NCBI RefSeq assembly: GCF_000243395.2
Contig: NZ_CM001484.1
Coordinates: forward strand, 341,589-405,588
DNA from: Saccharomonospora glauca K62
GTDB lineage: Bacteria > Actinomycetota > Actinomycetes > Mycobacteriales > Pseudonocardiaceae
Direction of reading: 5' to 3'
DNA length: 64,000 bases
This document shows positions 9,456 through 18,637 of this stretch, piece after piece; the first letter of the stretch is position 1, and every line of letters starts with the position of its first letter. The position numbers and the translations under genes are program-made. The notes below the pieces were generated by a model. It was not told where the DNA came from and did no database searches. It saw only the letters and a program-made list of their open reading frames with translations.

Positions 9456-10130
9456 TCAGTACCCGCCCGGACCCTTCTCGATCGAGGTGACCGAGAGGTG
9501 GCTGCCGGTGATGTCGGTGCGAGAGCAACCGAGACCGGGGGCTTCGACGTACTTCGACGCGCTCTCCTTCGGCGGGTAGACCCGTAGGCCTCGCACTTCG
9601 GTGGGTCCGCACATCGACTCGTCGTAGTTGAGCACCTGGGTGAACCCGACGTTGGAGTGGGCCACCTCGCCCGGCTGCAGCGTCAGAGCGGGGCCTTCCT
9701 CGCCGTTGTGCTCCGCGCTCTTACCGACCTGGTGACCGTCGTCGCCCGCGACGTAGGCGACCTCGGGGAAACCCTGAAGTACACAGGGGACGTCGCCGAC
9801 GTTGGTGAACTGCAACGGCCGGTACACCGTGCCCGCGGCGCCCTCTTCCTGTCCGAGCGTCACCTCCAGATTCCCCGACGTGCAGTAGGTCGGGTCGGGT
9901 GGAGGCTGCTCGGCCTCGGCCCTGGATTGGGCGGGCTCGGCTGGTGCCTCGCTGCTGCTCGGTGGCGGCTCGGACTTCGGGGAGGACGGGGCCTGCGAAG
10001 CGGTGGATGTCGCCGAGGAAGGCGACGTGTTCTGAGCCTGCTCGTCACCACCCTCCGGAGAGCATCCGGCCAGAGCGAGCGCCAGGCCTGCTGTGGCGAG
10101 CAGTACGTGTGCCGTGCTTGTCCGTTTCAT
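9456..10130 (-). CDS. DUF4232 domain lipoprotein
   Basis: 224-residue predicted lipoprotein. The signal peptide ends in the lipobox LALAGC (C23). A long low-complexity linker rich in Ser, Pro, Glu and Gln (about residues 25-85) is followed by a DUF4232-like beta domain: CTSGNLEVTL, YRPLQFTNVGDVPCVLQGFPEVAYV, LQPGEVAHSNVGF, CGPTEVRGLRVYPP. Four Cys in the domain could form disulfides outside the cell. The ATG at 10128-10130 is preferred over one 21 bp upstream because it gives the normal MKRTS signal start. The function of DUF4232 proteins is unknown; they are exported and common in actinomycetes. Neighbours do not form an obvious operon with it. Confidence 0.82.
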   Translation of the reverse strand: MKRTSTAHVLLATAGLALALAGCSPEGGDEQAQNTSPSSATSTASQAPSSPKSEPPPSSSEAPAEPAQSRAEAEQPPPDPTYCTSGNLEVTLGQEEGAAGTVYRPLQFTNVGDVPCVLQGFPEVAYVAGDDGHQVGKSAEHNGEEGPALTLQPGEVAHSNVGFTQVLNYDESMCGPTEVRGLRVYPPKESASKYVEAPGLGCSRTDITGSHLSVTSIEKGPGGY

Positions 10131-10245
10131 GGCCACCCCCTTTGGTTTCACATTTCACGACGCCGCCGCGGCGAAGGAGGTTGCCCTGTCGGCCCAAAGA
10201 CCCTCCGAAGGAGGGGCGCGATCTCGATCGGAGGAAGACGCTCGG

Positions 10246-10599
10246 TCAAGGGGCCGACGCAGTGTCACGGCGCGGACGTCGACGGAGTGGCCCGTGTCCT
10301 TCTCGGCGGTCCCCACGACGCCGAGGGCTCGCGGTGGGTGAGGAGTCGTGGCGCGTGTCCGAAAGGCGGTGAGCTGGTGTGGACCGCGGAGTTCTCCCGA
10401 GACAGACCTCGCAGGGCATCCCACGGAGTGTGTCGAGCCGATCGACCACGCCGGGGGTGAACGAGGCACCGCACAAGGCGGTGAGACGTCGGGGAACCTC
10501 GCCGAACGGCTCGGGTACGGGGACGAGGTGGACGACCCGTTGCGAGGTCGGGACGACACCGGGGACGGGTCGCACGAGCAGGTAGGTCGGTTCGGTCAT
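10246..10599 (-). CDS. Small Cys-containing hypothetical protein paired with an XRE regulator
   Basis: 117 residues with no recognised function. The conserved-looking core is YLLVRPVPG, VVHLVPVPEP, TALCGASFTPG and LRGMPCEVCLGR. Cys at 43, 63 and 66 with His 24 could make a small zinc-binding fold, which is an inference. The C-terminal third is Arg/Pro-rich and probably disordered. The start is ATG 10597-10599; an earlier in-frame ATG 48 bp upstream lies in what looks like leader. It follows the XRE regulator by about 70 bp on the same strand. In many actinomycetes such regulators have a small downstream partner, so a functional pair is plausible. Confidence 0.6.
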   Translation of the reverse strand: MTEPTYLLVRPVPGVVPTSQRVVHLVPVPEPFGEVPRRLTALCGASFTPGVVDRLDTLRGMPCEVCLGRTPRSTPAHRLSDTRHDSSPTASPRRRGDRREGHGPLRRRPRRDTASAP

Positions 10600-10672: not shown

Positions 10673-11851
10673 CTACAGGTCCAGTCCGGCGCGGGAGGCG
10701 AGGCCGCGAAGTTCCGTTCCGACAGCGTCGGCGCGACCGCGCTCGATCAATTCGATCACCAGTCCGCGTGCGACTCGTGATCCGTGGACCCTCGCGGGTG
10801 CGATTCCCTCCGCCGTTCGCAGGGAGTCCACGGCGTCGGAGCGACGCTGGCGGATGCGGGCGCAGGCGCGAGCGCGAGCGAGGTGGTAGGCGACCCGTCT
10901 CGTGGGGTTGGGGAGGGACGCGGGGGCGATGCGGTCGGTGAGGGCGGCGGCGGTGGCGTGGTCCCCGCGTTCAAGAGCGGCACTCGCCCGCCAGAGGTCC
11001 ACGTTCGCCGGCCCGAACCCGAACCAGCCGAAGTCGTGCCCGTCGACATGCCGTGCGAGGTCGGCGGCCTGGTCGAGTGCGGCCGCCTCGGTGGCGACGT
11101 CGCCACTTGCGGCCGCAGTGAGGGAGCGCGCGAGCGCCAACATGCCGGAGAGGTGAAGGCCCGCCGTGTCCGCGGTGCCGGGGGCGGCGTTCGTGATCAC
11201 CCTGGAGGCGAGTTCGAACTCTCCTTCGCCCACCAGACCGAGGCCCACGCCGAACGCGGCAGTGGCGACACTGACCGGGTCCTCGGCGCGGTGCGCGGCG
11301 TCGCGGGCGAGGATGGCGGCTTGCCAGGCGAGGTCACCGGGACCACCGATGTCACCGAGCCACGCCGCCGTGCCCTGCACGTGGAGGAGAGCCGCGAGAC
11401 GGAGAAGCTCGCGGACGTCCCTCCCCGCTCCGATCGAGCTGTGGACATCTCTCACGAGTTGAGGAAGTTCGTCTCCCACCGTGCGGTAGTCACAGGCGCG
11501 CTGCGCGTCCAGGAGAGCACTCGTGCGGTTTCGCAGAGTGTCGAGCGGGACGACGTCCCCGCCGGGAAAGCCGACGCTCACGGCGAGCAGAGCGGCGCGA
11601 ACGGCATCCACCTGGTCACCGGCGATGCCGGTTTCGACGGTGACGGGCACGGAGGGGCCGACGATGTCGGCGGGGGCGACGTCGAGCGCGCGTGCGAGAG
11701 CCGCGACCAGTGACCTGCGATCGAGTGCGCGTTGCCCACGTTCGAGGCGGGAGAGGTACGAGGGGGAGATACCGGCAAGTCCGGCCACGACGTCGAGGGA
11801 TCTGCCGCGTGCCCTGCGGATGCGGCGGAGGTTGGCTCCGGGGTGCTCCAT
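10673..11851 (-). CDS. XRE-family helix-turn-helix regulator with helical-repeat C-terminus
   Basis: 392 residues. Residues 8-60 form a Cro/CI-type HTH (LRRIRRARGRSLDVVAGLAGISPSY... recognition helix SYLSRLERGQ). The remaining ~330 residues are Ala/Leu/Arg-rich alpha-helical, resembling the TPR-like sensor part of actinomycete XRE regulators (repeated patterns of the type ALARSLTAAASGD, AALERGDHATAAAL). The start is ATG 11849-11851. Such proteins usually act with a small downstream partner, here the 117-residue Cys-containing protein. Effector and targets are unknown. Confidence 0.85.
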   Translation of the reverse strand: MEHPGANLRRIRRARGRSLDVVAGLAGISPSYLSRLERGQRALDRRSLVAALARALDVAPADIVGPSVPVTVETGIAGDQVDAVRAALLAVSVGFPGGDVVPLDTLRNRTSALLDAQRACDYRTVGDELPQLVRDVHSSIGAGRDVRELLRLAALLHVQGTAAWLGDIGGPGDLAWQAAILARDAAHRAEDPVSVATAAFGVGLGLVGEGEFELASRVITNAAPGTADTAGLHLSGMLALARSLTAAASGDVATEAAALDQAADLARHVDGHDFGWFGFGPANVDLWRASAALERGDHATAAALTDRIAPASLPNPTRRVAYHLARARACARIRQRRSDAVDSLRTAEGIAPARVHGSRVARGLVIELIERGRADAVGTELRGLASRAGLDL

Positions 11852-12142: not shown

Positions 12143-12162
12143 ACCGATAGTTGGTGAACTGC
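12143..12162. repeat. attL core (direct repeat with attR)
   Basis: 20-bp core matching the yajQ 3' end, with a single A in place of G at its fifth base relative to the right copy. It is not followed by other yajQ sequence, as expected for a displaced gene tail. Confidence 0.85.
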
Positions 12163-12344
12163 GTCCGACCTGGGGTGATGCCTTGCGGACGGCTTCTGAA
12201 CTGCCGGTTTGTAGTGGTCACTTACCGTTGGTGATGGACGCTGGTTGGTAACGGCTGTACCGGATTTGTACCGAGTTCGCTATGCCGGAGCGTTCCGGTG
12301 CGACACTCGTCGGGTAGTCAGTCTTTGACGGTTAGGAAGCGTGA
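12163..12344. other. Left-end non-coding region of the element
   Basis: About 180 bp between attL and the first cargo gene, with no ORF. A short direct repeat, TGTACCG, occurs twice 13-14 bp apart shortly before the gene and could be an integrase arm site or part of a promoter. AGGAAGC precedes the ATG at 12345. Confidence 0.4.
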
Positions 12345-13019
12345 ATGGTGGAGACTACTGGCGAGAAGCTGCTGCCGAACGATGGGGATTCCGGTATGCA
12401 GCTATGTCCAGTTGTGCAATTGGATTTGGCGTCAGCTAAGACATTGGCGGATCAGGTTTCAATAATCCAAGACCTGAGATCTGTAAGTGAGTACTGTGAT
12501 CGCTTATTTGAAATATTGCGTGAACCTGAAGATAGGCAGGATAGTGTCGCAATGCAGGCGTACTGGACTGCTGCTTTGGTTTCATATTGGAGGTGCTTCA
12601 ACACTGGGAAGAGGTTTGGGTTGACGGAAGAAGACGTGAAGGCGCTTCCTTATAAGGGTGAGGTCGTCGAGTATCACAGATGGCTTGGTGACATGCGGAA
12701 CAAGAACGTTGCGCACTCTGTCAACCCGTTTGAAATGGTGAAAGTTGGTGCTGTGCTCAGCCCGGATGGTGTTAATCCGCGAGAGGTGCAGGGCACGGGG
12801 GTGTTTAGCGCGCGCTACGTCAGTGTGGACGAAGGGGGCGTCCAGCAGCTTGCTTCTCTCGCTCGCGGATTAGCCGAACTTGTTTCGAAGCGTGCTGAAA
12901 CACAGCAGGAAGTTGTGTTAGAAGAAGCGCGAAAGATGGAATTTGACCGGCTTCGTCGAATGCCGCAGTTGGGCGGAACTATTCCTTCCTCCGAGGATGC
13001 TGCTCGCGCTCGGAAATGA
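12345..13019 (+). CDS. Uncharacterised protein with HEPN-type R-x5-H motif (element cargo)
   Basis: 224 residues, no family recognised with certainty. Mostly alpha-helical by composition. A central segment, YWTAALVSYWRCFNTGKRFGL followed by DMRNKNVAHSV, contains R118-x5-H124. This matches the catalytic R-x4-6-H signature of HEPN ribonucleases, preceded by a helix with aromatic residues as is usual in that fold. The C-terminal ~40 residues are charged and probably coiled. Third-codon positions are clearly richer in A/T than in neighbouring genes, indicating recent acquisition from a lower-GC source. AGGAAGC lies about 8 nt before the ATG. HEPN proteins on mobile elements are often toxins or anti-phage effectors. 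No obvious antitoxin lies beside it. Function is an inference. Confidence 0.6.
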   Translation: MVETTGEKLLPNDGDSGMQLCPVVQLDLASAKTLADQVSIIQDLRSVSEYCDRLFEILREPEDRQDSVAMQAYWTAALVSYWRCFNTGKRFGLTEEDVKALPYKGEVVEYHRWLGDMRNKNVAHSVNPFEMVKVGAVLSPDGVNPREVQGTGVFSARYVSVDEGGVQQLASLARGLAELVSKRAETQQEVVLEEARKMEFDRLRRMPQLGGTIPSSEDAARARK

Positions 13020-13025
13020 GCCGCC

Positions 13026-13179
13026 TGCTTGGTGGTCATCCCGTCGCCTGATGGCGTCTCGATCACGCCGTGTCGGGGCCGCAACCTTCCTCGATAACCG
13101 GCGGCTTGCGTTGCCAGGCTTGCGGCTCCGGCGCGGGGTGATAGCCATCAGGTCAGGCGACGGGATGACCACCAAGCAA
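13026..13179. repeat. Large imperfect palindrome (MITE-like or structured terminator)
   Basis: Left arm 13026-13055 (TGCTTGGTGGTCATCCCGTC...) is complementary to 13145-13179 except for a 5-nt insertion in the right arm. Inside it, 13061-13084 pairs with 13120-13143 at about 19 of 24 positions. The whole ~155 nt can fold into one long hairpin that begins 7 bp after the stop of the HEPN-motif gene. It encodes no protein. It could be a small non-autonomous transposon relic, a terminator or a structured RNA. Confidence 0.7.
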
Positions 13180-13183
13180 GCCA

Positions 13184-13411
13184 CCCCACCAACCGGAACC
13201 GCCGGCACTTCCCGGCCATCCCGGAGCCTGCCCGCCCGGCGAGGGCATCTCTTCTCGTCTCCTGCTCTGCGGTCCCGCCGTGGTTCCCGGACCGCCTGCC
13301 TTCCGCTCCTGGGTCCGCGTGCGGGACGGCGGGACCGGCGTCAGCCGCACGCCCGGCGGCCCGCTGGCGCGGACCCACAGTCAGCAGGCAGGCGGCCCCG
13401 GCGGGGCCGCC
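13184..13411. other. Inverted-repeat-rich non-coding region of the element
   Basis: No gene seen between the large palindrome and the GNAT gene. Several perfect inverted pairs interlock: CGGTCCCGCCGT 13270-13281 with 13326-13337, and TGGGTCCGCG 13310-13319 with 13368-13377. Such clustered secondary structure is usual near single-strand or double-strand origins of rolling-circle replicons, and the element carries its own HUH-type initiator. The assignment as an origin is speculative. Confidence 0.4.
13391..13411 (-). terminator. Terminator-like hairpin after the GNAT gene
   Basis: Perfect 9-bp all-GC stem, GGCGGCCCC paired with GGGGCCGCC, with a 3-nt loop, 46 bp past the GNAT stop. No T-run, as is common in high-GC actinobacteria. 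Confidence 0.6.
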
Positions 13412-13456
13412 CTTGACCATGTAGAGAAAGTCCTCACCGGATGTGCGCCGGGTGAT

Positions 13457-13987
13457 CTACGGGGCGGGGCTGACGTAGCAGTAGGCGGGCACGAGGCCGT
13501 GGCCTGAGTCGTGGTCGGTCGTTCCGATCCTGTGCCATCCGAGACGTTCGTAGAGGCGGATCGCGGCCTGGTCCTTCTCCATGACGTCCAGCACGAGGCG
13601 TAGCCCTTCACCGGCTGCGTGGCCCATCACGGCACGGGTGAGTAGTTCGCCTGCTCGATGTCCTCGGGCTTCGGGGTGGACGAACAGTCGACCCAACACG
13701 GCGATGTCCGCGGCTGCGCCCTCGGCTGTCTCGCGGAACATGATGGCCGCTGCGTCGGTGTTCGTGGGCTCGGTGATGCAGGCGTGACCGACGACCTCAC
13801 CGGCCAGCTCGGCAACCCACGCCTTCACTAGTCCGGCGGGCTTGAGCCAGGCTTCCGGGTCGGCGACTCCTTCGACGGGGTAGCCGTCGGCCTCGTGTAC
13901 GGCCACCAGGGCGGCAGCACACGCGGGGAGGTCGTCATCACGGCGAGGACGGACCACCGGGGTCGGCTGTTGGTGCGGCTCGAACAT
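13457..13987 (-). CDS. GNAT-family N-acetyltransferase (element cargo)
   Basis: 176 residues. GCN5-related acetyltransferase fold: beta strands around VAELAGEVVGHACI, the acetyl-CoA pyrophosphate loop LFVHPEARGHRAGELL (motif A, R/Q-x-x-G-x-G/A variant), then LVLDVMEKDQAAIRLYERLGWHRIG (motif B). The substrate cannot be told from sequence. The ATG at 13985-13987 overlaps the stop of the upstream GntR gene by one base (TGATG), so the two are co-transcribed and translationally coupled. GNAT genes are frequent partners of the GntR regulator in actinomycete integrative elements. Confidence 0.88.
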   Translation of the reverse strand: MFEPHQQPTPVVRPRRDDDLPACAAALVAVHEADGYPVEGVADPEAWLKPAGLVKAWVAELAGEVVGHACITEPTNTDAAAIMFRETAEGAAADIAVLGRLFVHPEARGHRAGELLTRAVMGHAAGEGLRLVLDVMEKDQAAIRLYERLGWHRIGTTDHDSGHGLVPAYCYVSPAP

Positions 13988-14778
13988 CAGTCCTCCACGG
14001 GCATGGTGTAGTCCAGGCCGGTCAGGTCGGCGCGCATGACGAACCTCGTCACCTCGAACGGTCGGCCGAGGTGGTCGATGCCGGTGTGCAGCACATCGAG
14101 TACCGGAACACCGTCCGGGATGGACAGCCCCGTGGCTTCCTCGTGGGTGGGCATCCGGGCGGAGACTTCTTCGCGGATGCGGGTGATCGGGTGTCCGAGT
14201 TCCTCGAACCGCGCGTACAGGCTGCCCTTGCCCATCTTCGCCGACGTGGCCAGCACCGAGCCTGCCGCGATCTCCCACGGGATGTAGGTGACGCCGACCT
14301 GAACGGGGTCCTCGTCGGCGTAGTACCAGTTCTCGCGGCGCACCACGGACGGCTCGGCCGGGTCGACGTCCAGGCGCTCGGCGACGTCCTCGGGCGGCTG
14401 GACACGCTCGATCGACGTGCAGTCCACGCGGGCCGTGCGGCCCTGCTTCGCCACCTCGGCGCGATAGGGCGACAGCCCTGTCTCGTTCCGGAGGCTGTGC
14501 GAGTACCGCTCGCTGCCGAAGCGGAGTAGGCGTCGCTTCTCGCGGACGAACACGCCCTTGCCGTGGTGCGCGGTGACCAGGCCCTCGTCGGTGAGCAAGC
14601 GAATGGCTTCGCGGGCGGTGTTGCGGGCCACGCCGTACTTGGCGGCCAACGCTCGTTCGGACGGCAGCTTGGCACCGGGAGGCAGGTCGCCTGAGGCGAT
14701 CGCGCTGCGCAGCTCGCTCGCCACCTGGCGGCTCGGGAGCTGCGTCCCGTCGCTGGGACGGCTCTGAGAACTGTTCAC
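13987..14778 (-). CDS. GntR-family regulator (HutC/UTRA type) of the element, KorSA-like
   Basis: 263 residues from the GTG at 14776-14778. An N-terminal winged HTH (about 15-80: QVASELRSAIASGDLPPGAKLPSERALAAKYGVARNTAREAIRLL, given here only as landmarks QVASEL, LPSERALA and ARNTAREAI) is followed by a UTRA ligand-binding domain (about 105-260; YSHSLRNETGLSPY, RRENWYYADEDPVQVGVTYIP, VLDVLHTGIDHLGRPFEVTRFV). GntR regulators of this type repress replication and excision genes in pSAM2-like elements. It faces three operator-like repeats (14828-14903) shared with the divergent replication operon. An upstream in-frame ATG at 14868 would place the protein across those operators and is rejected. Confidence 0.85.
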   Translation of the reverse strand: MNSSQSRPSDGTQLPSRQVASELRSAIASGDLPPGAKLPSERALAAKYGVARNTAREAIRLLTDEGLVTAHHGKGVFVREKRRLLRFGSERYSHSLRNETGLSPYRAEVAKQGRTARVDCTSIERVQPPEDVAERLDVDPAEPSVVRRENWYYADEDPVQVGVTYIPWEIAAGSVLATSAKMGKGSLYARFEELGHPITRIREEVSARMPTHEEATGLSIPDGVPVLDVLHTGIDHLGRPFEVTRFVMRADLTGLDYTMPVED

Positions 14779-14827
14779 GATGCCTCGCTTGCTGTCGGCG
14801 GTCTTATCTCTCCATCGCGGTCGAGTG

Positions 14828-14903
14828 TACTGGCTCAAGCCAGCTATTGACGGGCGGCGCGCGCTCACACTTTACTGGCTTAAGCCACTACTGGCTCAAG
14901 CCA
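14828..14903. promoter_or_regulatory. Three operator-like repeats between GntR and the replication operon
   Basis: TACTGGCT(C/T)AAGCCA occurs at 14828-14842, 14873-14887 and 14889-14903. The middle copy contains a perfect 12-bp palindrome, TGGCTTAAGCCA; the other two differ by one base. Copies 2 and 3 are spaced 16 bp apart, and copy 1 lies 45 bp before copy 2. They flank the divergent start region of the GntR gene and the replication genes, so they are the likely binding sites of the GntR protein. Confidence 0.8.
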
Positions 14904-14927
14904 CTTTGCTTGGGAGGGAACACGCTC

Positions 14928-15428
14928 ATGGGTGCGTTGGCGTTGGTGACGGAGGAGGCGTGCGGGACTGGGGTTCCGGAGTCGTTTCGGTTCGGGGATG
15001 ACAACCCGTGGACGGGGTGGTCGTTTGCGGAGTCGCGGTATCGGGATCTGCCGGATCACGTGGCGGATGTGGTGCGGGATCGGCTGAAACTGGATGCCGA
15101 GGAGTGGGACGGCCTGGTGGAGTGCCGTGCGGTCGCCGAGGTGGTGGACCTGGACACGGTGTTCCGGACGGCGCGGGGGCTGGCGGGGCCGAAGCCGGGC
15201 ATGTTGCCGCTGAAGGAGTGTGATCACTGTGGTCGGCGGCATCTGCGGGTGGAGATCACCTATCGGCGGTGCGTGTGTGGTGGCACGGGTCTGGCTCAGT
15301 CGAATGGGGTGGTGGCCTATCCGATGCGGTCGTGCCCGCTGTGCCAGGGGGACGGCCAGATGGCCACCTACGGCAGTGCGGGCTTGGTGGCTCAGGTCCA
15401 GGCGTGCCGGGCCGGTGGTGCCGCGTGA
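14928..15428 (+). CDS. Small zinc-finger-like protein preceding the replication initiator
   Basis: 166 residues. The N-terminal half is acidic and helical (YRDLPDHVADVVRDRL). The C-terminal part carries paired Cys motifs resembling a DnaJ-type or rubredoxin-like zinc ribbon: CDHC (98, 101), CVC (115, 117), CPLCQGDG (136, 139). Start ATG 14928 with GGGAGGG upstream; an earlier in-frame ATG would run into the operators. Its stop overlaps the GTG of repSA (GTGA), so it is co-translated with the initiator. Similar small proteins sit at this position in other actinomycete integrative elements. The role is unknown; it may assist replication. Confidence 0.7.
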   Translation: MGALALVTEEACGTGVPESFRFGDDNPWTGWSFAESRYRDLPDHVADVVRDRLKLDAEEWDGLVECRAVAEVVDLDTVFRTARGLAGPKPGMLPLKECDHCGRRHLRVEITYRRCVCGGTGLAQSNGVVAYPMRSCPLCQGDGQMATYGSAGLVAQVQACRAGGAA

Positions 15429-16795
15429 CACCAGTGCGAACCTCCCGCCTGGTCGGGGAGCTGCCGGGCGAGGACGAGCGGTTGGCGCTGCTGCTGCGGG
15501 GCTCGGGGTTCCGGTCGTGGCGGGCCAAGGTCGAGGCGGTCGGCGGGTGCGCGAAGCCGGTGCGCCTGGCGGGCTCGGCGGTGTGGGAGACGGCTGATGG
15601 TCGGCGGGTGCGGGAGTTGGACGGCACGCTGTTGGCCGCGTGCGGGAATCGGCGGGAGTCGGTGTGTCCGTCGTGCGCGCATCGGTATTCGGCGGACACG
15701 TTCCACCTGGTCCGTGCGGGCCTGTCCGGTGGCAAGGGCGTGGCGGAGGCGGTGGCGGGGCATCCTCGGCTGTTCGTGACGCTGACCGCGCCGTCGTTCG
15801 GGTCGGTGCACAACCAGCCTGCCACCCGCAGCGGTCAGCGTCGCCCGTGCGCCTGCGGGCGGGTTCATCACGACTACGACCCCGTGTTGGGCACGCCGCT
15901 CGATCCGGAGTCCTACGACTACGTGGGCGCGGTGTTGTGGCAGGCGCACGCCTCGGAGCTGTGGCGGCGCTTCACCATCACCTGTGCCCGGCATCTGGCC
16001 CGCGCCCTCGGGGTACGGCCGAGCGCGCTGAAACACCACCTGCGGCTGTCGTATGCCAAGGTGGCGGAGTATCAGCGGCGGGGCCTGGTGCACTTCCACG
16101 CCGTGATCCGCCTCGACGGACCCGACGGCCCCGACACCGCGCCCCCGGCGGCGGCCACGGTCGGCCTGTTGGAGCGGGTGGTGCGCTCGGCAGCGGCAGC
16201 GGTGGCGGTCGACTCGCCACCGTCTGAGGCGGTGGGGGCGCGGCGGCTGGTGTGGGGTCGTCAAATCGACTGCCGGGCCATCACCGAGACCGAGCCGGAT
16301 GATCCGGCGGCGTTGGTGCGGGGCTCGTCGGTGGCCTCCTACATCGCCAAGTACGCCACCAAGGGCACCGGCCATGCCCCCGGCGCGGACACCCCGATTC
16401 GCTCCGAACAACACATCGCCGACCTGGATGTCACCGACCACACCCGCACCATGATCCGCACCGCCTGGTGGCTCGGCGGGCTGCCGGAGCTGGCGGATCT
16501 GCGGCTGCGGAAGTGGGCGCACATGCTCGGCTTCCGCGGGCACTTCCTCACGAAGTCCCGCCGCTACTCCACCACCTTCACCGCCCTGCGCGGCGCTCGT
16601 CGGGAGCACCGTTTCGCCCAGGAGCTGGCCGACCTCGGCATCCACGACCCCGACCAGGTCACCGTCATCAACGACTGGTCGCTGATCGGCGTCGGCTACC
16701 GCAGTGCTGCCGAACGCGACTTCGCCCACGCCATTGCCGAGAAGGCCATTCAGCGGCGAAGGGGCCATCGGGTCGAGAGTGCGGCGGTGGTGTGA
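15425..16795 (+). CDS. repSA: RepSA-like rolling-circle replication initiator
   Basis: 456 residues from the GTG at 15425. Actinomycete integrative-element initiator that nicks the double-strand origin. A zinc-like cluster CPSC is at 81-84 (with C73 and H86 nearby). The HUH motif HFH is at 223-225 within GLVHFHAVIRLDG, and catalytic Tyr candidates Y306/Y310 are in SVASYIAKYATKGT. WWLGGLPELADLRLRKWAHMLGFRGHFLTKSRRYSTTF-like landmarks (GFRGHF, TKSRRYSTT) near 360-395 are typical of the family. The start overlaps the preceding gene by 4 bases and the stop shares one base with the integrase ATG (TGATG), so the three genes form one operon. No intact separate excisionase gene fits between repSA and int. 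Confidence 0.88.
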   Translation: MTPVRTSRLVGELPGEDERLALLLRGSGFRSWRAKVEAVGGCAKPVRLAGSAVWETADGRRVRELDGTLLAACGNRRESVCPSCAHRYSADTFHLVRAGLSGGKGVAEAVAGHPRLFVTLTAPSFGSVHNQPATRSGQRRPCACGRVHHDYDPVLGTPLDPESYDYVGAVLWQAHASELWRRFTITCARHLARALGVRPSALKHHLRLSYAKVAEYQRRGLVHFHAVIRLDGPDGPDTAPPAAATVGLLERVVRSAAAAVAVDSPPSEAVGARRLVWGRQIDCRAITETEPDDPAALVRGSSVASYIAKYATKGTGHAPGADTPIRSEQHIADLDVTDHTRTMIRTAWWLGGLPELADLRLRKWAHMLGFRGHFLTKSRRYSTTFTALRGARREHRFAQELADLGIHDPDQVTVINDWSLIGVGYRSAAERDFAHAIAEKAIQRRRGHRVESAAVV

Positions 16796-18000
16796 TGGCG
16801 GTCGATGACCTTTGGTACCACCGCGCTCGTGATCCCGAGACGGGAGAGCGGCGGCCGACGAAGCGCCACGGTCGCGGCAAGCGGTGGCGGGTTCGCTGGA
16901 TCGACCCCGAGACGGGGCAGACTCGTACGCAGCTCTTCGATCGGCGGGCCGATGCCGAGCGGCACGACGCCAACATGCGTGCGGACATCTCGCGGGGGCA
17001 ATACGTGGACCCTCGCGCGGGCAAGCTCACCGTTGCCGAGTACGCCGAGCACTGGCGTCGGACCCAGCTTCATCGGCAGAGCACGGCCGAGCGAACTGAG
17101 CGGGTCATTCGACGGCACATCGTTCCCGTGCTGGGGGCACTGCCGCTGGCGCAGGTACGGAGCTCGCACATTCGAGGGTGGGTCAAGGACCGCGCGGAAC
17201 GCCTCGCGCCGAGCACGTTGGCGACCGTCTACCACGGCACGCTCGTGCCGCTGTTCAATGCGGCCGTCGCCGACAAGCGCATCGGCAGCACGCCGTGCGT
17301 CGGCATCCGATTGCCGGAGGTCCCGGACACGCGGTACTACATCGCCAAGCCGGAACAGGTGCATGCGCTGGCGGAAGCCTTGCCCGAGCGGTACCGGGCG
17401 ATCGTCTACCTCGCTGCCGGCTGCGGCTGGCGTGGTGGCGAGATCTTCGGCCTCGAACGCGATGCGATCGACTTCGAGCGTCGCGAGATACACGTCCGCC
17501 AACAGCTCACTGTCGTGAGCGGGCGAAGCCCCTTCCTTGCCCCGCCGAAGACAAAGACCAGCATTCGGACGAACGAGCTACCCGTGGTCGTGGCGGAGGC
17601 GCTGCGCCACCACCTGGAGACCTTCCGGTCATTGCCCGAGGAGATCGACGACGAGACGGACCCGCGCCGGCCGATCCGGCGTCCGGCCGATCTCGTGTTC
17701 ACGCGAGGAGACGGCCGGCCGATTCATCGATCGGACTGGTCGTTCATCTGGCGGCCCGCGGTGGAGAAGGCGGGCCTGCCGAAGGGATTCGGCCTGCGTG
17801 ACCTGCGGCACTACTTCGCCACGGTGCTGATCTTCGGGGGAGCCAACGTCAAGACCGTTCAGCTCGCGATGGGTCACACGACGCCGACGGTCACCCTGAA
17901 CACCTACGTGGGCTACTGGCCGGACGCCGTGGACCAAACCCGCTCGCTGGTGGACTCCGCCCTCGGTTGTACCGGGGATGTGCCCGGCGGCACCGATTGA
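16795..18000 (+). CDS. int: Tyrosine site-specific integrase of the element
   Basis: 401 residues. N-terminal arm-binding region with Arg/Trp-rich strands (KRWRVRWIDPETGQTRTQLF landmarks), core-binding SAM-like domain about 75-170, catalytic domain about 180-385. Catalytic residues: R213 (GWRGGEI), probable K252-254, R338 in LRDLRHYFA (the position three before it is Arg, not His), H361 (MGH), and the nucleophile Y371 (LNTYVGY). It ends 30 bp from the right attachment core, the normal place for an attP-proximal integrase. Recombination at the yajQ 3' end is deduced from the flanking direct repeats. ATG overlaps the repSA stop by one base. Confidence 0.95.
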   Translation: MAVDDLWYHRARDPETGERRPTKRHGRGKRWRVRWIDPETGQTRTQLFDRRADAERHDANMRADISRGQYVDPRAGKLTVAEYAEHWRRTQLHRQSTAERTERVIRRHIVPVLGALPLAQVRSSHIRGWVKDRAERLAPSTLATVYHGTLVPLFNAAVADKRIGSTPCVGIRLPEVPDTRYYIAKPEQVHALAEALPERYRAIVYLAAGCGWRGGEIFGLERDAIDFERREIHVRQQLTVVSGRSPFLAPPKTKTSIRTNELPVVVAEALRHHLETFRSLPEEIDDETDPRRPIRRPADLVFTRGDGRPIHRSDWSFIWRPAVEKAGLPKGFGLRDLRHYFATVLIFGGANVKTVQLAMGHTTPTVTLNTYVGYWPDAVDQTRSLVDSALGCTGDVPGGTD

Positions 18001-18028
18001 CGCATTACCGCAGGTCACGCAGCGAATG

Positions 18029-18520
18029 TCACCGGTAGTTGGTGAACTGCAGGGCGATGCCGAAGTCCTGGTTCTTCAGCAGCGTGATGACCTCCTGGAG
18101 GTGGTCCTTCTTCTTGCCGGACACCCGGAGCTGGTCACCCTGGATCTGGGCTTGCACGCCCTTCGGGCCCTCGTCGCGGATGAACTTGGCGATCTTCTTC
18201 GCCTTGTCCGCCTCGATGCCTTCAAGGATCTTGCCGTTGATCTTGTAGACCTTGCCGGAGACGGCGGGCTCGCCGGCCTCGAAGGCTTTGAGGGAGACAC
18301 CGCGCTTGACCAGTTTCTCCTTGAAGACCTCCACCGCCGCCTTCGCGCGCTCCTCGGTCTCGGCCTCGATCGTCACGGCACGCTCACCGGCCCACTCGAT
18401 CTTGGCGCCGGTGCCGCGGAAGTCGAACCGCGTGGACAGCTCCTTGCTCGCCTGGTTGAGCGCGTTGTCCACCTCCTGACGGTCGACCTTGCTGACGACG
18501 TCGAAAGAGGGATCGGCCAC
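18029..18520 (-). CDS. yajQ: YajQ/DUF520 nucleotide-binding protein
   Basis: 163 residues from the GTG at 18518-18520 ([13 protein letters not shown]), the standard family length. Two ferredoxin-like halves ([14 protein letters not shown], and [13 protein letters not shown]...[16 protein letters not shown]). YajQ proteins bind nucleotides, cyclic di-GMP in Xanthomonas and tRNA/nucleotides in E. coli; the role in actinobacteria is not settled. The last codons coincide with the attachment core 18031-18050, so the mobile element integrated at the 3' end without damaging the protein. It converges with int, 28 bp away. Confidence 0.92.
18031..18050. repeat. attR core within the yajQ 3' end
   Basis: Right copy of the 20-bp direct repeat. 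On the minus strand it encodes the YajQ C-terminal residues LQFTNYR plus most of the region up to the stop. Differs from attL by one base. Confidence 0.85.
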
Positions 18521-18637
18521 GTCATACACCTCGTCGTTTCGGCTGTTGGTTGGCTCTCACCCTAGTCAGTGCCAACCCCGCCGGTTGGGTGAGTTGGGGG
18601 TTCGCTATCCTTGGTGTCAGCCGGATTCACCGGTCTC

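Follow-up and report, generated by a model that had tools for sequence, protein, structure and literature searches.

The 64,000-nucleotide stretch of Saccharomonospora glauca K62 analysed here (the window; NZ_CM001484.1, positions 341,589 to 405,588, from a genome of 4.56 Mb) carries, at the 3' end of yajQ, a compact integrative element enclosed by two copies of a short direct repeat. From left to right it contains a low-GC open reading frame (ORF) of 224 residues, an inverted repeat, the genes for a GNAT acetyltransferase and a GntR/UTRA regulator, an ORF of 166 residues, and the genes for the initiator RepSA and a tyrosine integrase. A preliminary description had placed an integrase, a RepSA-like initiator, GntR and GNAT proteins and a foreign-looking gene between the repeats, and all of these were confirmed by profile matches or inspection of the ORFs; it had overlooked the 166-residue ORF, the hairpin at 13037-13167, the absence of Tra and what appears to be a cargo slot. 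The features of the locus, in positions of the window, are:

12143..12162, plus strand: attL core, 20 bp; the minus strand reads NYR-TAG, a second yajQ end
12143..12272, plus strand: left att arm, alignable in ten yajQ elements or remnants; ends with TGTACC-N5-TGTACC (12256-12272)
12345..13019, plus strand: cargo gene, 224 aa, about 0.52 GC, without family match
13037..13167, no strand assigned: conserved hairpin of 131 nt that bounds the putative cargo slot on the right; predicted at -87 kcal/mol when folded as RNA
13457..13990, minus strand: GNAT acetyltransferase, PF00583
13987..14778, minus strand: GntR/UTRA regulator
14928..15428, plus strand: ORF of 166 aa, N-terminal part conserved in sister elements
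15425..16795, plus strand: RepSA rolling-circle initiator, PF20199 (E=4.8e-149), with HFH (HUH) and Y-x3-Y motifs
16795..18000, plus strand: tyrosine integrase, 401 aa, PF00589 (E=1.4e-18), C-terminus facing yajQ
17968..18017, plus strand: right att arm, with TGTACC-N5-TGTGCC (17968-17984) and, 11 nt ahead of the stop codon of yajQ, CAGGTCA (18011-18017)
18029..18529, minus strand: yajQ (DUF520), the target, intact
18031..18050, plus strand: attR core, which forms the 3' terminus of the functional yajQ

The two copies of the 20-bp repeat (12143-12162 and 18031-18050) are identical at 19 of 20 positions (95%), as had been described, and their spacing of 5888 gives an element of 5,888 bp. No third match with up to three mismatches was found in the 64-kb window, and two matches occurred in none of 100 shuffles of the sequence. 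The att core reads AGTTGGTGAACT. The right copy is indeed C-terminal coding sequence of yajQ, with the refinement that it also takes in one base of the yajQ stop, TGA at 18029-18031. In the orientation of yajQ the left copy likewise encodes ...QFTNYR, but it ends with TAG. About 30 bp separate the stop codons of the integrase gene and yajQ. Since both copies encode the end of YajQ, the gene stays whole, and its protein is preserved by either end.

The position of the strand exchange can be approached from the eight elements or remnants in which the copies of the repeat are unequal. Seven of them differ solely outside the stretch TAGTTSGTGAACTG and one, the remnant L045, differs inside it; because the differences fall mostly outside, the crossover point is probably located within TAGTTSGTGAACTG, and the last yajQ codon would therefore be derived from the element. 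All eight relatives with an empty site end yajQ with CGG-TGA; in the element L036, as an element origin of the last codon predicts, CGC stands in the working yajQ and CGG in attL.

The family was searched in 390 Pseudonocardiaceae genomes from 46 genera, 44 of which gave a match to the integrase at E<=1e-60. Eight genomes encode a full-length integrase with 82% or more identity to that of the window, and it abuts yajQ in all of them; attL and attR were found in every case, with element sizes of 5.77-7.26 kb. This junction, accompanied by attL in 8/8 genomes, supports the integrative element with the ends originally proposed. The search for att repeats, which took in 24 loci, also yielded repeats for two remnants of 2.6 and 2.8 kb, and a 16-nt repeat only for L039 (9.2 kb). 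In a scan of genome contigs the integrase end abuts the 3' end of yajQ in 10 of 19 loci, from Saccharomonospora, Thermocrispum, Amycolatopsis, Actinokineospora, Pseudonocardia, Actinoplanes and Salinispora; three of these ten are integrase fragments and a fourth is devoid of the N-terminal part. Besides the window's own, 29 Pseudonocardiaceae integrase loci were classified (23 further match rows had no locus and are not counted), and 10 of them abut yajQ, including all with at least 82% identity. The combination of arm and core was detected in 27/390 genomes and 7/46 genera, with none for the reversed-pattern control, and the CAGGTCA arm lies exactly 11 nt from the yajQ stop in 26 of 29 sites. 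A full-length integrase adjoins in eight of the 27 genomes, the others being scars or remnants.

Other targets are used within the same integrase group. Six of the 29 loci, with integrases 49-63% identical, abut the 3' end of a gene that we take by eye to be nadD-like, with a match to PF01467 (cytidylyltransferase-like) for two of the six tested; att repeats of 24-69 nt were found in three of them, L118, L120 and L122 (9.7, 9.7 and 12.1 kb), which makes this a second protein-gene target. The integrase of L102 abuts a subtilase gene, and three more distant integrases (37-38%) adjoin tRNA-Ala. In L107 the integrase match (1501-2721) contains two in-frame TGA codons and adjoins an ORF, presumably amylase-like, so that a target gene is possibly disrupted there. 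On an integrase tree of 32 rows, from which two fragments were left out, the yajQ label needs three changes, of which at least two are forced by the starred branches; repeated gain and repeated loss of yajQ targeting are not separable, because the tree leaves the deep order unsettled. Among the matches listed from a plasmid collection, the best integrase was 33% and the best RepSA about 50% identical, and three viral-contig loci carry integrase matches at 48-58% identity. A limited literature search gave no account of yajQ as an integration site and no paper pairing yajQ with an integrase. Protein-coding att sites are less unusual than had been supposed: sites of actinomycete integrative and conjugative elements (AICEs) comprise 36 tRNA genes, 14 protein-coding genes and one intergenic site (Choufa 2022, PMC9513070), and a whole integrase subfamily (pSLS) is exempt from tRNA targeting (Ghinet 2011, PMC3218068).

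For 11 elements or remnants, the left flank was set against yajQ loci that lack an element. For L113, L114 and L036, flank and core run straight into yajQ in relatives lacking the element, and in all six junctions compared more closely, taken from five Amycolatopsis relatives, the overlap between the flanks is 22 bp long and corresponds to one core. The prediction that a relative without the element would join flank and yajQ through a single core was thus borne out for three elements; it had no clean outcome for the window's own, whose left flank matched only NB11, a congener that is itself occupied, and eight of the 11 flanks gave no clean empty case.

These comparisons bear on a different placement of the left end, in which the true element is larger, takes in the XRE-family regulator gene to the left (10673-11851, minus strand) and has only an inner boundary at 12143. 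That gene, which may be a relic of an earlier element, stands beside attL in the two Saccharomonospora yajQ regions that hold a full element and is missing from the ten other congener regions; besides, NB11 has part of an attR-like arm to the left of attL, and G218 and G215 have a second site with arm and core near yajQ. Against this, no further copy of the core with up to six mismatches exists between 7000 and 12140, the left arms of ten elements align from the core at 12143, and the empty sites of Amycolatopsis define the same end, which makes the larger element very unlikely. As for the doubled sites, G218 and G215 contain two each, and in G218 an integrase-end remnant is located left of attL; two sites together with such a remnant point to accretion.

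Several traces of the element, or of its relatives, remain beside yajQ. In genomes G006, G007 and G011 a GNAT homologue follows yajQ directly, and at L058, L059, L063 and L163 one that is 60-71% identical lies just downstream of yajQ with the rest of the element absent; such a stand-alone gene could be either the source of the element's GNAT or its scar. At the Amycolatopsis eburnea locus L050, part of the yajQ 3' end occurs once more (from 8028), about 1.4 kb away from the gene, as would fit a spare end that remained after an element had decayed. In NB11 (L055, 8989-9600), the XRE gene and its neighbour are separated by CRISPR-like repeats GTCGGCCCCGCACGCGCGGGGATGGACC, three copies by eye. 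Further to the left in the window, the stretch TTCGG..GGGTC...GCAACC at 10152-10300, upstream of the gene at 9456-10151, is alike by eye in several congeners and looks like an RNA leader; it had no Rfam match, and a scan of the window with Rfam returned tRNAs only.

No match to the Tra family PF01580 was found inside any of eight elements. Three traits of AICEs are present: a site-specific integrase, a replication protein of one of the recognised kinds (RepSA, RepAM or Prim-Pol; here RepSA), and direct repeats at both ends with insertion at a gene's 3' end. Since the FtsK/SpoIIIE-type Tra is missing from the element, it is not an AICE by published definitions. Neither is it one of the defective AICEs (DAICEs), where traB is kept and int or rep is missing: here, in reverse, int and rep are kept and tra is absent. 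Of what defines an integrative and mobilizable element, namely integration of its own and transfer by the machinery of a helper through an origin of transfer, the integration module is present. The RepSA of the window scores 450 with the NCBIfam RepSA equivalog, below the cut-off of 700, and the preceding 166-residue ORF had no family match. In the window genome (G000), the matches to PF01580 are ORFs of 748-1418 aa far from the element, none of them resembling the Tra of AICEs.

The conserved hairpin offers a link to elements that do possess Tra. It was found in 70/390 genomes and 16/46 genera, with few candidates scored per genome; of 30 loci returned, three are in yajQ elements (the window, G238 and G179). 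Fifteen hairpin loci were fetched at length, of which 12 have a Tra homologue and 13 a RepSA; L230 and L240, which have no such genes, and L237, which has no tRNA, were left unmapped. The 12 loci with a tRNA gene beside the backbone all have att repeats of 38-98 bp, with attL 199-4,949 bp left of the hairpin, and 11 of them are tra-positive, with the order attL, slot, hairpin, Tra, RepSA, tRNA. No homologue of the window integrase was matched in L229, L232 and L235. The congener locus L226 is a tra-less sister of 5,092 bp at tRNA-Lys, with GNAT, GntR and RepSA 92%, 97% and 90% identical to those of the window; its integrase is a different Phage_integrase protein, with 22% identity over 187 aa. 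Because the tra-positive hairpin elements at tRNA genes share the module order and the tra-less sister has a closely related core, the yajQ element is considered AICE-derived; integrase modules have been exchanged on a common backbone, as reported for AICE03 too (PMC9513070).

The loss of Tra could also mean that the element is a decayed and immobile AICE remnant, stuck beside yajQ after a recent deletion of tra. The genome of the window has a single RepSA, the element's own, and congener G003 likewise has no second one; yajQ scars and remnants are common, with a full-length integrase in just eight of the 27 genomes with the arm pattern. Set against this, tra-less elements in which RepSA and integrase are both intact were found in three genera and use two attachment sites, and the integrase and GntR of the window and Thermocrispum are closer than yajQ, which speaks for movement after tra was lost; we therefore consider an immobile remnant unlikely. 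In DNA identity, the window and Thermocrispum share 84% in yajQ, 91% in the integrase and 96% in GntR; Thermocrispum and NB11 share 87% in yajQ, 95% in the integrase and 98% in RepSA, whereas the window and NB11, of the same genus, share 94%, 91% and 90%, respectively. These values diverge in rank between yajQ and the genes of the element, so their histories differ, and the integrase being closer than yajQ between the window genome and Thermocrispum makes it likely that the element moved between genera.

Another feature of these elements is the variability of the region left of the hairpin. When ten elements or remnants were aligned from the core, they were alike for about 125 bp, up to TGTACC-N5-TGTACC (the last repeat of which is altered in L115), and then diverged. 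This segment, between the left att arm and the hairpin, appears to be a slot for swappable accessory genes, usually one. Four Amycolatopsis elements have backbones 92-94% identical and unrelated slot genes: one encodes an HTH and M78 protein with a partner ORF (PADLOC RmrA, 3e-60), another a SIR2-like protein (PDC-S25, 4e-129), and two gave no family match above the cut-off, although they show what we take to be nuclease-like motifs. The slot of NB11 holds a DUF4145 protein. GNAT, to the right of the hairpin, is also present in the elements of NB11 and Thermocrispum; no homologue was found in those of Amycolatopsis at yajQ. The 224-residue cargo protein of the window matched nothing in Pfam, NCBIfam or PADLOC, and its fold, predicted without an alignment, has a mean pLDDT of 50 (low confidence). 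It includes a stretch, RNKNVAH (R-x5-H), which presumably resembles that of HEPN RNases; this hints at such an RNase, no more.

A set of 30 cargo proteins was compared with PADLOC: the window cargo, nine other cargo proteins and 20 ORFs chosen by the analyst from 32 hairpin loci (duplicates were passed over, as were most ORFs that were doubtful or high in GC and one locus that had none). Nine of the 30 matched below 1e-10, versus one of 20 host proteins of the window (Fisher one-sided p=0.03). The models matched were RmrA (twice), PDC-S25, PDC-M36A, NsnA, MTase_II, REase_II, SoFic and a pAgo model; the host protein that matched is ABC-ATPase-like and several models are generic, so that an enrichment of slot cargo in defence-like genes is suggestive only.

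The hairpin itself could be a strong terminator that insulates the cargo gene, with no role as an origin or in recombination. Many cargo ORFs are tens of bases or less away from it, and it marks the divide between low-GC cargo and the backbone; in 28 of 30 loci, GC content is lower in the 300 bp on its left side than in the 300 bp on its right. For a terminator it is very long, about 40 pairs, the cargo ORFs to its left are found on either strand, and it is kept where the slot has no ORF of 100 aa (L226-L228). Its pairing is also kept: in 26 distinct type A hairpins, 97.9% of cells pair and two-sided changes affect 15 of 45 pairs, a count that leans toward pairing since the structure comes from the same alignment (36 sequences; one that would not trim and L209 were left out). 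A terminator is thus a serious possibility, though the less favoured one; possibly, the hairpin is a single-strand origin. Types A and B do not track the integrase tree, the window, L113 and L045 being of type A and the sisters of the window and of L113 of type B. In L113 homology to its sisters resumes only about 45 bp past the hairpin, and for this reason the hairpin seems to have travelled together with the cargo. No match to the hairpin was found in plasmids or phages at E<=1e-3. Integron gene cassettes have an attC with GTT/AAC core boxes and are moved by an IntI-type integrase. This reading was discarded for the hairpin, which ends in CATCCCGTC/GACGGGATG and has no such boxes; with integron-integrase models, the window integrase scores far below the cut-offs.

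Taken together, we favour, with a probability of roughly 85%, an AICE-derived integrative element without Tra that integrates at the 3' end of yajQ, would replicate through RepSA and need a helper for transfer, and has a cargo slot. As judged from the repeats and the empty sites, the tyrosine integrase would recombine attP of the circular form with the last codons of yajQ; the copy of the yajQ end carried by the element would keep the gene whole, and a second yajQ end would be left on the far side as attL. Excision to a circle would be driven by the integrase, and RepSA, from its motifs and family, would replicate this circle by the rolling-circle mode. Transfer would depend on the Tra of a helper, none of AICE type being seen in the window genome. 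The hairpin at the right edge of the slot may serve as single-strand origin, and cassettes may be exchanged by recombination in the slot flanks or by a route involving a double-strand origin (DSO), a gene and a single-strand origin (SSO), as proposed for staphylococcal plasmids (Wassenaar 2016, PMC5037232). A broader proposal is held only tentatively, and is rather doubtful: that in rolling-circle AICE-type elements of Pseudonocardiaceae the slot is dedicated to the exchange of cargo, where a gene, sometimes with the hairpin, is swapped as a cassette via rolling-circle intermediates, so that these elements would act as a platform for the turnover of phage-defence genes, the tra-less yajQ family being hitchhikers that specialise in such cassettes and keep the least backbone. 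A limited literature search found no description of a hairpin-bounded slot.

Some observations weigh against the favoured reading. No congener offers a clean empty site: in genomes G001, G002, G004 and G010 a portion of the right arm persists but no integrase is there, and G009 keeps a remnant with an 80-aa integrase end and pieces of GNAT. The XRE gene accompanies attL only in the yajQ regions of the window genome and NB11, both occupied, and in none of ten other congeners; an older, larger island that included it could have existed. The working yajQ of L113 and L114 has CGG, as in the empty relatives, and their attL has CGC, which does not fit an element origin of the codon and would mean that the spare end has drifted or that the exchange took place further out; supply of the last yajQ codon by the element was therefore rejected as a general rule, L036 conforming to it and these two not. 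No excisionase gene was recognised in the element, no attP circle was observed, and attL was not found for the more distant integrases adjacent to yajQ in L116, L117 and L040.

At this locus an integrase and its attB are precisely mapped to a conserved protein gene, and they follow a simple rule (CAGGTCA arm, mostly 11 nt, stop codon, core), which could serve genetic tools in Pseudonocardiaceae. The locus also indicates that tra-less relatives of AICEs persist and probably move between genera; being tra-less, such elements would be missed by surveys that require traB or the set of Int, Rep and Tra. If the slot holds up, it would be an easy place to mine unknown actinobacterial defence genes, and would offer a case in which to test whether rolling-circle elements exchange cassettes without a transposase.

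With respect to known systems, the yajQ element shares a GntR regulator with pSAM2. ICEBs1 is likewise an integrative element that is said to have a single-strand origin. The RepSA AICEs of the pSAM2 type are alike in tyrosine integrase, RepSA, att repeats, module order, accretion at one site and variable cargo (PMC3218068, PMC9513070); the yajQ element differs in having no Tra and in targeting yajQ instead of a tRNA gene. It is also smaller, 5.9 kb versus the 11.9-36.3 kb given for AICEs and DAICEs by Choufa 2022 (PMC9513070). According to the same survey, variable cargo, accretion, integrase swaps and protein-gene sites have already been reported for AICEs. DAICEs resemble the yajQ element in that one AICE signature gene is missing; nevertheless, they are defined there by a kept traB, whereas the yajQ element keeps int and rep and has no tra (PMC9513070). 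AICE03, in the same survey, likewise occupies a tRNA gene in some strains, and another strain has it in a protein gene, together with a divergent integrase; it differs in its target, rlmN, and in the presence of tra. The staphylococcal DSO-gene-SSO cassettes (PMC5037232) also combine a hairpin origin with an adjacent accessory gene in rolling-circle replicons, with transposase-free exchange; here, in contrast, the gene stands between an att arm and the hairpin, the DSO was not located, and the element integrates.

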